A stretch of 23,117 nucleotides of DNA from a virus. This document shows positions 3,438-8,960 of this stretch, in pieces. The position numbers were made by a program, and so were the translations under genes. The stretch lies in IMG/VR virus record IMGVR_UViG_3300010316_000053, positions 1 to 23,117 of that record; one strand, given 5' to 3'. The notes below the pieces were generated by a model. That model saw only the letters and a list, made by a program, of their open reading frames with translations. It did no database searches and had not been told where the DNA came from. How positions within the stretch are numbered: the stretch's first letter is position 1; every line of letters begins with the position of its first letter.

Positions 3438-4778
3438 ATGAGCGACAACGAAATCAAAAAGTTTGGCCGATACTCGGAACTCGGCGTCGCCTCGGACACC
3501 GATCCGCGCTATGGCCTGCGCCAAGACGAGTTCGTCAACGACCTGCGCGGTCAGCGCGGCATCAAGCGCCTGCGTGAGATGGCGTCCAACGACGCGATCA
3601 TCGGCGCGATCCTGTCTGCGATGGACTTGATGATCCGTTCCACGCCCGTGCGGATCGAGGGCGGTACGGAAGAAGCCCGCGACCTGATCGAGTACAGCCT
3701 GCACAACATGCAGGGCGCGACATTCGAGATGTTCATCAGCGACGCGCTCTCCTTCCTGCCCTACGGCTTCAGCCTGTTCGAGATCGTGGCCCGCCCGCCC
3801 TCGCAGCACCCGAAAGGCTGGGTAACGTTGAAAAAGCTGGCCCCGCGAGCGCAATGGACGGTCGAACGCTTTGAGTCCAACATCAACGGCGACATTCTGG
3901 GTGTTTACCAGACCGCTACGACACGCTCGGCCTATATCCCGATCAGTAAACTGTTGCACTTCCGCACGGCGTCCAAGCAGTCCGATCCGGCAGGGACATC
4001 TGTGCTCCGCTCGGCGTACTCGTCGTGGTACTTTATGCGGCGTATCCAAGAGATCGAAGCCATCGCCATCGAACGCGAGCTGAACGGTCTGCCCTTAGTC
4101 CGCGTGCCGTCTGAATACTTGGACCCCGACGCCGACGCCACGAAAAAAGCCTTCGTCAACAAGATCAGCCAGATCGCCCGCGACGTGAAACGCAACGAGA
4201 TGGGTCACATCGTTCTGCCCTCGGACGTTTATGAACACGCGGACGGAAAACTGACCGAGATCCGGCTTGTCGAGTTTGAACTTATCGCCTCGCAAGGCAA
4301 GCGAGACATCGACACCAACATCGTGATTCAACGCTACGCGCAGGACATGGCCCGCTCGGCCCTCGCAGACTTCGTGCTCCTTGGCTCCAACGACCGTGGC
4401 TCTTTCGCCCTGTCCAAGTCCAAGTCCGACCTGTTCCTGAAAGCCCTTGAGGGCTACGTCAGCGCGATCACCAGCGTCCTGAACCGCCAGCTTGTGCCGA
4501 AACTGCTCGGCTGGAACGGCATGGCGGCAGACGACATGCCGGAGATCAAGTTTGGCCGCATCGCGCCCATCGACCTCGATCAGCTCGGCTTCTACATCCA
4601 GTCGCTCACAGGCGCGGGCATCGACCTGACCGACGACGACACTCGCGACTTCATCCGCAACGCGGCGGGCTTACCGCCTGCCGTCACCGTACCGGGCGAA
4701 CGATTGAACGGCAAACCTGACCGCGAGCAGCAGGTTCTGCCCAACGCAACGCCGCCCGCACCGGAGCAGGCTGAGTAA
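3438..4778 (+). CDS. Portal protein (DUF935 / Mu gp29-like)
   Basis: A 446-aa portal protein that forms the ring at the unique capsid vertex through which DNA enters and leaves and where the tail attaches. The sequence has the pattern of the DUF935/Mu gp29 portal family: an N-terminal helical region (LREMASNDAIIGAILSAMD), a conserved FLPYGFSLFEIV segment near residue 105, and a long-helix region with RYAQDMARSALADFVLLG. A disordered, Pro/Glu-rich tail follows. The start at ATG 3438 is set by GGAGAC (3425-3430) seven bases upstream; a GTG at 3423 in the same frame overlaps that site and is rejected. The stop overlaps the next start by one base (TAATG). Confidence 0.92.
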   Translation: MSDNEIKKFGRYSELGVASDTDPRYGLRQDEFVNDLRGQRGIKRLREMASNDAIIGAILSAMDLMIRSTPVRIEGGTEEARDLIEYSLHNMQGATFEMFISDALSFLPYGFSLFEIVARPPSQHPKGWVTLKKLAPRAQWTVERFESNINGDILGVYQTATTRSAYIPISKLLHFRTASKQSDPAGTSVLRSAYSSWYFMRRIQEIEAIAIERELNGLPLVRVPSEYLDPDADATKKAFVNKISQIARDVKRNEMGHIVLPSDVYEHADGKLTEIRLVEFELIASQGKRDIDTNIVIQRYAQDMARSALADFVLLGSNDRGSFALSKSKSDLFLKALEGYVSAITSVLNRQLVPKLLGWNGMAADDMPEIKFGRIAPIDLDQLGFYIQSLTGAGIDLTDDDTRDFIRNAAGLPPAVTVPGERLNGKPDREQQVLPNATPPAPEQAE

Positions 4779-5530
4779 TGGTTCAGGGCACACAAAGCTG
4801 GCACGAGCGCCTGTGGCGCACCAACAATCTCGCGGACATCGCGCGAGGTGAGGTGCCGGGTGCCAAGCCGTTCTCGGCGTTTGGCGAAAACGTCACTTCA
4901 GGGTCCGTTACCGACCAAGTGCTGTGGGAAACAGGGATGCCCACCACGCTGACCGTGCCGGACTCCATCCAACTGTCTTTCGTGTCGAGCGCCGCTGATA
5001 CCCGCCGACTGAAACTGGTCTATCTGGACGGCGATCTGGTCGAGCGCACGGAGACAGTCACGCTCACAGGCACCACGCCTGTCCTGACCACGGCCACGGA
5101 CATCCGTTTCGTCAACGGTCTATACAGCCTCGACAACGCAGCGGCCGCGAATGTGACGGCCACGAGCGGCGGCGTGACCTACGCACGGCTAAATTCGGGC
5201 GGTGTGCAGTTTGACCAAGCGATGTACCGCGTCCCCGCAGGCCGCCGCCTTATGGTCAATTCGCTCTACGCAGGCACGGCGTCCGAGTCGCAGGGCAGTT
5301 CCGGTGCCCGCGTCGTCATCAAGGCCGAGGTATCTTTCTTCAACGGCGACAGCTTTGGGGAGCAGGGCATCCTGCATCCCGTTGGCGGCATCGCCATGCA
5401 AGACAACGCCGTGACCCTGCCCTTTGGCCCGTTCCCGATCCCTGCGGGCGAGATCGTGGCCATGACTTTCAGTTGCAGTAAAGCCGCCGACGTGGTGGGC
5501 GGCTTCTTTGGATGGACGGAGACCGCCTGA
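4778..5530 (+). CDS. Hypothetical protein between portal and protease
   Basis: A 250-aa protein that I do not recognise. It is rich in Thr, Ser, Val and Gly with many alternating hydrophobic stretches, so it is probably largely beta-sheet. The ending FPIPAGEIVAMTFSCSKAAD and a preceding PVGGIAMQDNAVTLPFGP block look like a beta-sandwich virion protein. There is no signal peptide or membrane segment. It is coupled to the portal stop (TAATG) and to the protease start (TGATG), so it is made with the prohead proteins. In many Mu-like gene orders a minor head protein occupies this slot, but this one does not look like the usual Mu F-like protein. A capsid fibre or minor head role is inference. Confidence 0.85.
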   Translation: MVQGTQSWHERLWRTNNLADIARGEVPGAKPFSAFGENVTSGSVTDQVLWETGMPTTLTVPDSIQLSFVSSAADTRRLKLVYLDGDLVERTETVTLTGTTPVLTTATDIRFVNGLYSLDNAAAANVTATSGGVTYARLNSGGVQFDQAMYRVPAGRRLMVNSLYAGTASESQGSSGARVVIKAEVSFFNGDSFGEQGILHPVGGIAMQDNAVTLPFGPFPIPAGEIVAMTFSCSKAADVVGGFFGWTETA

Positions 5531-6774
5531 TGCCCTACGACACACTCCCCAAGCGTTTACGCGACCTGATCCCGTCCAAGGACGGCCAAGAGATGTTCCG
5601 GCAGGTCGTCAACAGCCAACTGGCGGCCAATAAGACCGAGGCCGTGGCGATGGCGTCCGCATGGGCCGCGCTGGAACGCGCGGGCTACGACAAAGGCGAA
5701 GACGGCAAATGGGTGAAGAAGACCATGCCAACCCTGAGCCAAGTCCACGTTCCCGGCGCGGAATGGGACGACAAGAAGCGCAAGAAGAAGCCGAAGGTCG
5801 AAAAGGCCGAGTACCAAGGTCGCACTGTCTCACTGGACAAGCCGTTTCGGATGCCAAAGGGTTCGAGCAAAAAGTTCGGCGTCTATGTGAAAGACGGCGA
5901 CCGCGTGAAGCGTGTGACGTTTGGCGATCCGGACATGGAAATCCGCCGCGATGACGCGCGGGCCCGCGCCAACTTCCGTTCGCGTCACTCCTGCGACACG
6001 GCCACGGACAAGACGAGCGCCCGGTATTGGTCGTGCAGAATGTGGACCGCAAAGACGCCCGTGAGTGACCTCGCCAAACGCTACCTGAACGACGACAGCT
6101 TCACCACCCGCGATGAAGCCGCAGCACGCAGCTACGACCTCGGGATGGAGGGCGAAGTGCATGTCCACCAGACCGCTGACGGCCAAGCCGTCTACATGCC
6201 GGGAGAGAGCCACGAGGACTATCTCGAAGCGATGGCGAGCGCGGCTGGACTCCTTGAACCCGAAGAGATCGAGGAGGAAGAATACGAGGACGACGAGGAC
6301 GAATCAGGAACAGGATTGCTTGAACGCGCCATTTCCGCCATACTAGAGGCCGTGACCGACATGGAAAAGGCCGACATGACCGAGAACGTGACCAAGACCG
6401 CCGACATCCTGAAGGTGGACACCGAGCGCCGCATTGTGTGGGGCTGGGCGTCTGTCTGCACCATGAAAGGCGAGACCGTCACCGATCTACAGGGCGACCG
6501 CATCGCGCCCGCGCAGATGGAAAAGATGGCAGACCGCTTCATGCGCAGCGCCCGCGCCGCCAAAGCGATGCACTACGGCGACGACGTGGGCGAGGTTATC
6601 CACTCCTTCCCGATGACCAAAGAACTTGCAGACGCCTTCGGCATCCAAAGCGAGCGTGAAGGTTGGATCACCGGCACCTACGTCAAGAGCGACGAGGAGT
6701 GGGCCAAGGTGCGCCGAGGTGAATACAAAGGGCTGTCAATCGGCGGCCGCGCACGTCGCAAGGAGGCAGAGTGA
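5530..6774 (+). CDS. Prohead protease, ChaB-DUF6321-XkdF-type fusion (N-terminal part of protease fold)
   Basis: A 414-aa, three-part protein. Residues about 1-55 are ChaB-like (LPKRLRDLIPSKDGQEMF, then AWAALERAGY). Residues about 94-172 match the phage domain usually called DUF6321/DUF5872: KKFGVYVKDGDRVKRVTFGD, RSRHSC (H153, C155) and ARYWSCRMW (C169). An acidic linker (about 243-260, many E/D) leads to an XkdF-like prohead protease (about 291-414), with candidate catalytic H348 (MHYG) and S403 (GLSIGG). The start at 5530 has GGAGAC (5518-5523) six bases upstream and overlaps the previous stop (TGATG). It ends soon after SIGG, before the SLVD.PAN strand normally in the same chain. That strand opens the next gene. 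It would cleave scaffold and capsid proteins during maturation. Confidence 0.85.
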   Translation: MPYDTLPKRLRDLIPSKDGQEMFRQVVNSQLAANKTEAVAMASAWAALERAGYDKGEDGKWVKKTMPTLSQVHVPGAEWDDKKRKKKPKVEKAEYQGRTVSLDKPFRMPKGSSKKFGVYVKDGDRVKRVTFGDPDMEIRRDDARARANFRSRHSCDTATDKTSARYWSCRMWTAKTPVSDLAKRYLNDDSFTTRDEAAARSYDLGMEGEVHVHQTADGQAVYMPGESHEDYLEAMASAAGLLEPEEIEEEEYEDDEDESGTGLLERAISAILEAVTDMEKADMTENVTKTADILKVDTERRIVWGWASVCTMKGETVTDLQGDRIAPAQMEKMADRFMRSARAAKAMHYGDDVGEVIHSFPMTKELADAFGIQSEREGWITGTYVKSDEEWAKVRRGEYKGLSIGGRARRKEAE

Positions 6775-7577
6775 TGGCTTATGATCTCGAAGATATTGAC
6801 CTGCTGGAACTCAGTCTGGTCGATAATCCCGCGAATCAGCACGCGAGTGTTGTGCTATTTAAGCGTTCGGGGTATAACCCCTATGTCAAGTCCGAAAATT
6901 CGGACCTAACCGAGAAAGGAGATGGTTCAGTGACCGTCGAAGAACTCACGAAGAAGCTGGAAGACCTCCAGTCTCAGGTCACTGACCTGACCGAGAAGGC
7001 GTCCTACGCGGACAAAGAGCGTATGAAAGCCGAAGACGAGAAGAAAAAGGCCGAAGATATGGCTGCCAACATGAAGAAGTCGGCTGAAGAAGCTGGTTTC
7101 ACCGTGGATGGCGACACCATCACCAAGGCTGCTGACCCTGAGTATGTCGAGATCGAAGGCGAGCGGGTTGAGAAGTCTCTCGTTCCGGCTCCGATCCTGA
7201 AGGCCATCGAAAAGCAGGCCGAAGCCATCGCCAAGATGGAAAAGGCGGCTCGGGAAGTCGAACTCGCCAAGTCGGGCGCGACGGAACTGCCGAACCTCGC
7301 AGGCACCGATCTTGCCAAAGGCAAGCTGCTGGCTGCCGTTGCAGGCGACGAGGAGCTGCTCAAGGGTCTCAAGGCCGCCGACGCAGCTATGGCTTCGCAG
7401 TACGTCGAGAAGGGCACCGCCGAGACGGATGAAGCCTCCCCGACGCACAAGTTGAACGAGCTTGCCAAGGCGCACGCATCTGCACAGAACGTCTCGTTTG
7501 AGACCGCCTATGCCGAAGTGACCAAGGCTGGCCCCGGCGCGGATCTGCTTACAGAACTCCGTACAACCGCCAACTGA
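6774..7577 (+). CDS. Protease C-terminal strand fused to coiled-coil scaffold
   Basis: A 267-aa protein. Residues about 8-30 (LDIDLLELSLVDNPAN-like; read as DIDLLELSLVDNPAN) match the closing strand of XkdF/HK97-type prohead proteases, whose His and Ser lie in the upstream gene. Residues about 54-120 are a charged coiled coil (EELTKKLEDLQSQVTDLTEK and following), and the rest is Ala/Glu/Lys-rich helix, as in capsid scaffolds. The ATG overlaps the protease stop (TGATG), with AGGAGG (6761-6766) 7 bases upstream, so translation is coupled. An internal GTG at 6930 with an excellent binding site can yield scaffold alone. Scaffold proteins guide capsid assembly and are then degraded. A sequencing indel at the junction cannot be excluded. 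Confidence 0.85.
   Translation: MAYDLEDIDLLELSLVDNPANQHASVVLFKRSGYNPYVKSENSDLTEKGDGSVTVEELTKKLEDLQSQVTDLTEKASYADKERMKAEDEKKKAEDMAANMKKSAEEAGFTVDGDTITKAADPEYVEIEGERVEKSLVPAPILKAIEKQAEAIAKMEKAAREVELAKSGATELPNLAGTDLAKGKLLAAVAGDEELLKGLKAADAAMASQYVEKGTAETDEASPTHKLNELAKAHASAQNVSFETAYAEVTKAGPGADLLTELRTTAN
6915..6932 (+). promoter_or_regulatory. Internal ribosome binding site and GTG start
   Basis: AAAGGAG (6915-6921) lies eight bases before GTG 6930-6932. The GTG is in frame with the surrounding gene at codon 53, exactly where the protease-like N-terminus gives way to the coiled coil. The match to the Shine-Dalgarno consensus is as good as that of any full gene here. Confidence 0.65.
6930..7577 (+). 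CDS. Nested scaffold protein from internal start
   Basis: A predicted 215-aa product that shares frame and stop with the 6774 gene but lacks its protease-derived first 52 residues. It begins at GTG 6930 (MTVEELTKKLEDLQ), directly at the start of the coiled coil, with AAAGGAG eight bases upstream. The arrangement parallels phage lambda, where scaffold Nu3 is made from an internal start within protease gene C. It would supply scaffold in excess over the protease-bearing form. Support is from sequence only; the alternative is a single product from 6774. Confidence 0.6.
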   Translation: MTVEELTKKLEDLQSQVTDLTEKASYADKERMKAEDEKKKAEDMAANMKKSAEEAGFTVDGDTITKAADPEYVEIEGERVEKSLVPAPILKAIEKQAEAIAKMEKAAREVELAKSGATELPNLAGTDLAKGKLLAAVAGDEELLKGLKAADAAMASQYVEKGTAETDEASPTHKLNELAKAHASAQNVSFETAYAEVTKAGPGADLLTELRTTAN

Positions 7578-7589
7578 GGAGAGTGACTC

Positions 7590-7946
7590 ATGGCTACTAC
7601 CAAAGCAGGCATCAGCATCACGCTCCCCGCAGCCGCTGATCTTCGCACCCACCAATACAAGTTCGTGTCCATTGACGCGAACGGCAAAGCGGCACTGACT
7701 GCCGACGACGCACACGCCGACGGCATCCTGTGCAACGACCCGAACACCGACGAGGCGGCCATCGTGCTGATCTCTGGCGTGGGCAAGGTCAAGTGCGGCG
7801 CGGCTGTAACACGCGGCGGCGACATCTCGTCGGGTGCAAACGGGGCAGGCAAAGATGCCGACTCCGGCGCGGCCATTCTTGGCACCGCACTCGAAACTGG
7901 CGCGGACGGTCGGATCATCTCCGTCCTGTTCCACCCGCGCGGCTGA
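7590..7946 (+). CDS. Capsid decoration protein (DUF2190-like)
   Basis: A 118-aa, Ala/Gly/Asp-rich, beta-type protein placed just before the major capsid gene, the usual slot for lambda gpD-like or DUF2190 cement proteins. The pattern of short strands (YKFVSIDANGKAAL, AIVLISGVGKVKCG, GGDISSG, GRIISVLFHPRG) fits that family. It would bind the capsid surface after expansion and stabilise it. The start ATG follows GAGGAGAG, 13 bases after the scaffold stop. The capsid gene follows after 15 bases. Family is inferred from pattern, size and position. Confidence 0.8.
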   Translation: MATTKAGISITLPAAADLRTHQYKFVSIDANGKAALTADDAHADGILCNDPNTDEAAIVLISGVGKVKCGAAVTRGGDISSGANGAGKDADSGAAILGTALETGADGRIISVLFHPRG

Positions 7947-7961
7947 TAGGAGACCACAGCA

Positions 7962-8960
7962 ATGACGCAACCCACCGCACGCGCTGTTCATACCGATCAG
8001 CCTCTCACCAATATCTCGGTCGCGTTCCTTCAGAACGCTTCCAACTTCGTCGCGTCGCGGGTGTTTCCAAACATCCGCGTGCAGAAGCAGTCGGACGTGT
8101 ACTACACGTATGACCGGGGTTTCTTTAACCGCAACCAAGCCGAGCTGCGCGCTCCGGCCACTGAAGCGGCAATCGCCGGTTTCGGTCTGAGCACTGACAA
8201 CTACCGCGCAGACGTTATCGCCCTCAAGACCCAGCTTGCATGGCAGGTCGAGGCCAACGCCGACGCTCCGGTTCAGCTTGAACGTGCCAACACCGAACTG
8301 TTGCTGCACCAAATGCTGATCCAGAAAGAAGTTGACTGGGCGACCAAATACTTCGGTTCCGGCATCTGGGGCACCAACTATGCTGGTGTGGCCGCTACAC
8401 CGGGTACAGGCGAAGTTGTCCAGTGGTCCGACCAGACCTCGGGCGATCCGATCAGCAACATCCGTACTGCCAAGACAGACATGATGGAATCCACTGGCTT
8501 CATGCCGAACACCGGCGTCATGTCGCAGCGTGTGGTTGACGAGCTGCTGGATCACCCGGACATCGTTGACCGCATCAAGTATTCTGGCGGCGTCGGCAAC
8601 CAGAACCCAGCAATGGCGTCGGAGCAGACACTGGCACAACTGTTTGGTCTGGAGCGTATCCTCGTGATGCGCGCGATCCAGAACACCGCTGCGGAGGGCG
8701 ACACCAACGCGCACTCCTTCATCGGTGGCAAGAACGCGCTGCTGGCCTATGTTGCACCGACACCGGGCTTGATGACCCCGACCTCCGGCTACACCTTCAC
8801 ATGGTCTGGCTATCAGGGCGGCGGCAACGAGTTCGGCGTGACGATCTCGCGCCGTGAGGACGACAAGATCAAGGCGACCGAAGTGGAAGCCGAACTTGCC
8901 TATGCCCACAAGCTGGTTGCCAGCGACCTCGGCGTGATGTTCAACGACATCGTGGCCTAG
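7962..8960 (+). CDS. Major capsid protein
   Basis: A 332-aa protein that should adopt the HK97 fold and form the icosahedral shell. It has the typical N-terminal block FPNIRVQKQSDVYYTYDRG, an RAPATEA segment, the long helix region ERANTELLLHQMLIQKEVDW and a closing beta part (FGVTISRREDDKIKATEVE). There is no N-terminal delta-domain, in line with a separate scaffold. Length is normal for the Mu/lambda E-like capsid group. GGAGAC (7949-7954) precedes ATG by seven bases. The gene ends with two stops in a row (TAG TAA) and is followed by a strong terminator, as expected for the most abundant protein. Confidence 0.9.
   Translation: MTQPTARAVHTDQPLTNISVAFLQNASNFVASRVFPNIRVQKQSDVYYTYDRGFFNRNQAELRAPATEAAIAGFGLSTDNYRADVIALKTQLAWQVEANADAPVQLERANTELLLHQMLIQKEVDWATKYFGSGIWGTNYAGVAATPGTGEVVQWSDQTSGDPISNIRTAKTDMMESTGFMPNTGVMSQRVVDELLDHPDIVDRIKYSGGVGNQNPAMASEQTLAQLFGLERILVMRAIQNTAAEGDTNAHSFIGGKNALLAYVAPTPGLMTPTSGYTFTWSGYQGGGNEFGVTISRREDDKIKATEVEAELAYAHKLVASDLGVMFNDIVA

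Follow-up and report, generated by a model that had tools for sequence, protein, structure and literature searches.

A capsid-maturation protease fold that is probably divided between a protease gene and the overlapping gene of a probable scaffold

The window analysed here, an entire 23,117-base IMG/VR virus record (IMGVR_UViG_3300010316_000053, positions 1 to 23,117), probably encodes a capsid-maturation serine protease of the XkdF/T4 gp21/herpesvirus type whose fold is divided over two polypeptides. Chain 1 would supply His348 and Ser403 and end with the strand that bears the serine, and the next strand, ELSLVDNPAN, which is in-chain in one-chain relatives, would here form the N-terminus of chain 2, a probable scaffold. 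The two chains would be made separately from overlapping genes, the second from its own ribosome site, and would associate by strand addition, with chain 1 alone short of part of the active site. The coordinates of the two genes and of the features discussed below are collected in Table 1.

Table 1. Protease, junction and capsid features of the window (positions count from the first base of the window)
Feature	Position	Strand	Basis
Gene 1, protease chain, 414 aa from ATG 5530	5530..6774	+	ORF and domain matches
XkdF (Peptidase_S78_2, PF14550) core	6403..6762	+	profile 4-125 of 126, E=3.6e-15
His348 codon (MHYG)	6571..6573	+	invariant across relatives aligned
Ser403 codon (GLSIGG)	6736..6738	+	invariant across relatives aligned; 11 codons from Ser to stop
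Shine-Dalgarno-like AAGGAGG for gene 2	6760..6766	+	sequence; ends 7 nt before ATG 6774
TGATG stop-start overlap, gene 1/gene 2	6772..6776	+	sequence; start offsets in relatives
Gene 2, predicted active-site strand followed by probable coiled-coil scaffold, 267 aa	6774..7577	+	ORF and profile match
Predicted complementing strand LEDIDLLELSLVDNPA	6786..6833	+	conserved: E12 (6807-6809), S14 (6813-6815), D17
Capsid cement/decoration-type protein	7590..7946	+	phrog_673
Major capsid protein	7962..8960	+	phrog_1005

The head operon of the window runs in the order terminase, Mu-type portal, a gene of unknown function, gene 1, gene 2, cement-type protein and major capsid protein, and three successive gene pairs in it are joined by stop-start couplings with one-base overlaps at 4778, 5530 and 6774 (TAATG, TGATG and TGATG, respectively). 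Gene 1, whose reading frame is also open from an ATG at 5512 (420 aa), encodes ChaB and HVA1-like domains (window positions 5545-5721 and 5794-6045) followed by a C-terminal XkdF core; the region ahead of the core is variable or missing in relatives. Counting from the ATG at 5530, the MHYG (H348) and GLSIGG (S403) motifs and the stop 11 residues past the serine are all present as a preliminary description of this DNA had claimed, and the His and Ser of the core are invariant among the 28 aligned relatives. The Pfam profile PF14550 matches gene 1 at residues 298-417 with 56.5 bits (cut-off 24), and this profile itself stops at the split point. The HK97-type profile PF04586 (Peptidase_S78) gave no match to chain 1 alone, and a strand-profile search found no strand motif at the N-terminus of gene 1.

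The start of gene 2 carries the strand LELSLVDNPAN, and gene 2 by itself shows a sub-threshold match to the tail of PF04586 (profile 129-158 of 165, 17.5 bits against a cut-off of 21). When the two chains of the window were joined, PF04586 was reached at 22.3 bits, whereas neither chain passes apart, and the joined chains of the relative L194 reached 23.5 bits against the same cut-off. The alignment to XkdF and HK97-type models proposed in the preliminary description thus places PF14550 within gene 1 and reaches PF04586 with the joined chains only. Joined L194 also matches the one-chain families phrog_34096 and phrog_9427 across the junction. The fold model was built from L194 read through its natural TAA, which is followed directly and in frame by an ATG, and not from the window's own chains; the strand in the model is backed by no more than four joined rows, three with a natural in-frame stop (L193, L194 and L181) and L073. 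In the AlphaFold model of joined L194 (pLDDT 84, pTM 0.78), residues 111-123 form the Ser strand, and the strand that comes immediately behind it, residues 128-142, belongs to chain 2; block-mean pLDDT is 81-88 over residues 121-140 and drops to 64 in the ten residues that follow. The best PDB match found with Foldseek is T4 gp21 (5JBL; prob 1.00, TM 0.57, a modest E of 1.1e-3, 159-174 alignment columns), the next matches are herpesvirus proteases, and among viral models XkdF, psiM2 and COG3740 proteases were matched. At the sequence level, the joined profile had no match in the PDB and could not be usably aligned to T4 gp21 with hhalign. The profile scores and the predicted model support a protease fold to which the next gene contributes the missing strand from its N-terminus, in agreement with the two-chain protease proposed earlier.

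Relatives were gathered by core-only searches from IMG/VR contigs, isolates and one bacterial contig, and since they were chosen on the protease gene only, the sample is not biased towards the split. The core chain ends 10-15 residues past the Ser in 170 of 171 loci, a set that includes near-copies (53 loci are distinct at <80% identity), and the one remaining locus is cut off by the contig end. The search of related phage genomes suggested in the preliminary description therefore recovers the same break almost throughout, and a split position shared by 170 of 171 relatives excludes chance. The next ORF opens with the strand, [E]-[IL]-S-x-V-D-x-P-A, in about 165 of 169 loci, a count adjusted by inspection (L154 removed, L196-L198 added), so that the strand predicted at the start of the following gene is found in the window and in nearly all of these relatives; among the 169 loci it is not at the start of the following gene in L150, L154, L172 and L190. 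Split isolates include Roseobacter phage CRP-6, RDJL Phi 1, Salmonella phage 9NA, in which gp37 and gp38 are the two chains, Klebsiella phage Carvaje and Escherichia phage PDP46, and further ones are Enterobacter phage Mulvp2, Rhizobium phage RHph_TM3_3_9 and Vibrio phages 1.250.O and 13VV501A.

The strand occupies a different place in the XkdF-type proteins of Bacillus and Lactococcus, in which it is N-terminal (ITHVSYVDKAANKKQFF) and precedes the core, and a long C-terminal region and then the capsid gene follow. The profile of this permuted strand matches the N-terminus of chain 2 at 95% probability with a score of 31.2, compared to a maximum of 13.9 for 200 column-shuffled controls, and the core profiles of the split and permuted forms align at 98.5%. 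Because the strand profiles match and the cores match too, the Bacillus/Lactococcus XkdF proteins are, as judged by profile comparison, circular permutants relative to the HK97 order. A PDB fold search with a model of permuted XkdF (pLDDT 69) found no match. The HK97 order, core then strand, is present in one uninterrupted chain in psiM2, whose closest kin in the tree, L263 and L264, are both split; one-chain psiM2 and split L263 are collinear, chain 1 of L263 aligning to psiM2 76-181 at 55% identity and the start of its chain 2 matching psiM2 188-240 (E 5e-7). The second genes of RcKickapoo and MS01 have the strand near their start, and both lie among the permuted forms in the tree. In the window's own clade all 29 of 29 members are split (support 99/99), and the earlier premise that this protease family is normally one polypeptide fails for this clade, in which the two-gene form is universal. 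Since the split state must have changed three times or more on the starred branches of the tree, the split appears to have arisen at least three times, an approximate number given that bootstrap is not fully settled and that several branches are long. The first gene of some wider relatives continues past the Ser, so that 'split' labels do not all denote the same break.

The strand profile did not match the second genes of Pakpunavirus (EM), CR3 and Colwellia 9A, whose N-termini, along with that of the ICP1 second gene, are similar to the strand by eye only. In Cronobacter phage CR3 (L213, 1863-2438) the protease chain extends ~28 residues past the Ser, possibly with a strand of its own, and the gene after the protease has a start motif that resembles that of ICP1 gp124. 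Arthrobacter phage LiSara gp18 (L210), annotated as an RNA ligase, ends in an XkdF-type core with GYSIGG ~17 residues from the end, and the gene after it, annotated as a hydrolase, is without the strand. PHROG 1530 goes by the name 'DNA methyltransferase', but the XkdF protease core occupies its positions about 220-362; many phage prohead proteases bear this misleading product name.

E12 and/or S14 of chain 2 would stand at the position of the third catalytic residue of one-chain relatives. The catalytic residues of SPN3US gp245 are H77, S153 and D178 (PMC5694885), and loss of activity is expected when gp245 is truncated ahead of the third of these (PMC7411985). The conserved strand Glu of L194 is found at Ser+25, the spacing of D178 in SPN3US gp245 (PMC5694885), and this Glu is replaced in other families, by Phe in 9NA-type phages and, among permuted XkdF proteins, by His, Phe or Tyr, while Ser14 of the strand is invariant in the split and permuted rows. 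A VES glutamate is found in the core of 12 of 12 permuted rows versus 1 of 26 scored split rows (L216-L262, L202, L203 and L206 compared with L034-L199); the exchange of an acidic residue between strand and core may be functional, and it is confounded with descent. The replacement of the strand Glu in some families would also suit a different explanation, in which chain 1 is a complete enzyme and the N-terminus of chain 2 merely a docking peptide for prohead entry with no catalytic part, and the tight gene coupling and strand conservation are equally compatible with it. We nevertheless regard such a docking role as unlikely, because the strand has its homologue within the single chain of psiM2 and of the PF04586/phrog proteases, the match of the joined model to T4 gp21 extends over 159-174 alignment columns, and Ser14 is invariant in both split and permuted rows.

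The gene order protease, chain 2, cement and capsid is that expected for scaffold genes, and by this analogy chain 2 is probably the scaffold, as had been proposed before. ICP1 gp124, the product of the gene at the equivalent position, assembles coat into procapsids in E. coli (PMC10945586), and its N-terminus gave no match to the strand profile. This missing match, together with the fact that the chain-2 families 24785, 19463, 4103 and 27672 are without function in PHROGs, would fit chain 2 being a minor head protein or a protease cofactor, but we judge a role other than scaffold to be quite unlikely in view of the place of chain 2 between the protease and the cement and capsid genes, the coat-assembling activity of gp124 at the same place (PMC10945586) and the arrangement in Bacillus, where one-chain XkdF has its own long C-terminal region and adjoins the capsid gene, a separate scaffold gene being absent.

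At the junction, the TGATG overlap with AGGAGG upstream and no slip site was confirmed: the window contains no TTTAAAC slippery heptamer, and the RNA fold of the junction is unremarkable (z -0.58). A GTG at 6771 lies one codon upstream of the gene 2 ATG at 6774. The TGATG junction is not special, because the same one-base overlaps occur at 4778 and 5530, and the coupling of gene 1 to gene 2 is ordinary for the operon. In 51 of the 53 distinct loci the second gene starts within -20..+12 of the stop, most often through ATGA (18 loci), a TGATG-type overlap (13) or an 8-nt overlap (10). The frame of the second gene relative to the first is +1 in 81 relatives and +2 in 79, and as the frame relation varies, frameshifting is excluded as a general mechanism. 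Frameshifting or read-through as the general mode of expression was rejected on the same grounds and for lack of both a slip site and RNA structure, which supports the separate translation favoured in the preliminary description. A fused single product of both genes, made by programmed frameshifting or stop read-through, finds some encouragement in L181, L193 and L194, whose genes are parted by an in-frame stop only, but it is highly unlikely given the divided frames of the relatives, the absence of TTTAAAC from the window, the unremarkable junction RNA and the identical one-base overlaps that join other genes of the operon.

Compared to L004, dN/dS is 0.07 for the core, 0.16 for chain 2 and 0.02 for the strand region, and the first 35 codons of gene 2 differ by 9 synonymous changes and 1 non-synonymous change; both chains are under purifying selection, the strand most strongly. 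The architecture of the window recurs in the independent records L002-L005 and in isolates such as CRP-6, which rules out an indel near 6760-6775. That one gene was broken by a sequencing or assembly indel, an explanation that the different frames of the two genes might invite, has negligible probability in the face of the same break in 170 of 171 relatives, several independently sequenced isolates among them, and of a start, a ribosome site and purifying selection on each side. We conclude that the split is genuine and not a sequencing error.

XkdF (PF14550) of Bacillus and Lactococcus has the His...Ser core in common with gene 1 of the window, but it is a single chain with the strand ITHVSYVDKAAN before the core, whereas the strand of the window is on the next gene. 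In psiM2 ORF12 (phrog_34096), the head maturation protease of an archaeal virus, core and strand and their order are as in the window, yet in a single uninterrupted chain instead of two genes. The HK97-type Peptidase_S78 proteases (PF04586), whose cut-off the chains of the window pass once joined, are likewise one chain, in contrast to the form split in the window and in 170 of 171 relatives; in HK97 the scaffold forms part of the capsid protein (PMC12749128). The predicted fold of joined L194 is like that of T4 gp21 (5JBL) and herpesvirus assemblin, but in these the protease domain is one chain, and in T4 protease and scaffold are separate and the protease is complete. In ICP1 gp125/gp124 an XkdF core is directly followed by a scaffold gene as in the window, and gp124 has been shown to scaffold (PMC10945586), but unlike in gene 2 its N-terminal strand homology is below detection by the strand profile. 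Known arrangements place protease and scaffold together in a single gene, as in P2, lambda and Mu, or give each a complete gene of its own, as in T4 (PMC8508860, PMC9958956). In the open-access literature searched, no split or permuted XkdF-type protease is described, and, as far as this search shows, a protease domain divided between protease and scaffold genes is undescribed.

We hypothesize that activation of the two-chain protease is scaffold-dependent. Each active protease would hold a scaffold molecule that carries the enzyme into the prohead, proteolysis would be limited to where the scaffold is, and after digestion of the scaffold its N-terminal peptide may remain as a small second subunit. 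In T4 the scaffold is in large excess over the protease, at about 580 gp22 to 55 gp21 (PMC9958956), and since scaffold usually far exceeds protease, strand binding on its own would not make activation coincide with completion of the prohead; binding would target the enzyme and keep it scaffold-dependent.

It is a long-standing question how phages hold their capsid protease inactive before the prohead is complete, and another how the enzyme enters the prohead. We see an even chance that many tailed phages and some probable archaeal viruses form the active site of this protease from the products of two genes, of which the second encodes the scaffold, such that the enzyme works only on, and is carried by, the scaffold, that the strand has moved repeatedly, and that the two-gene form links the HK97 order with the permuted XkdF order. 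The split would account for the end point of the Pfam XkdF profile and would give a probable function to chain-2 families that now have none (PHROGs 24785 and 19463). If true, the scaffold N-terminus, as the last strand of the active site, would be both a targeting device and a lock, in a fold that has had its edge strand severed and re-attached several times.
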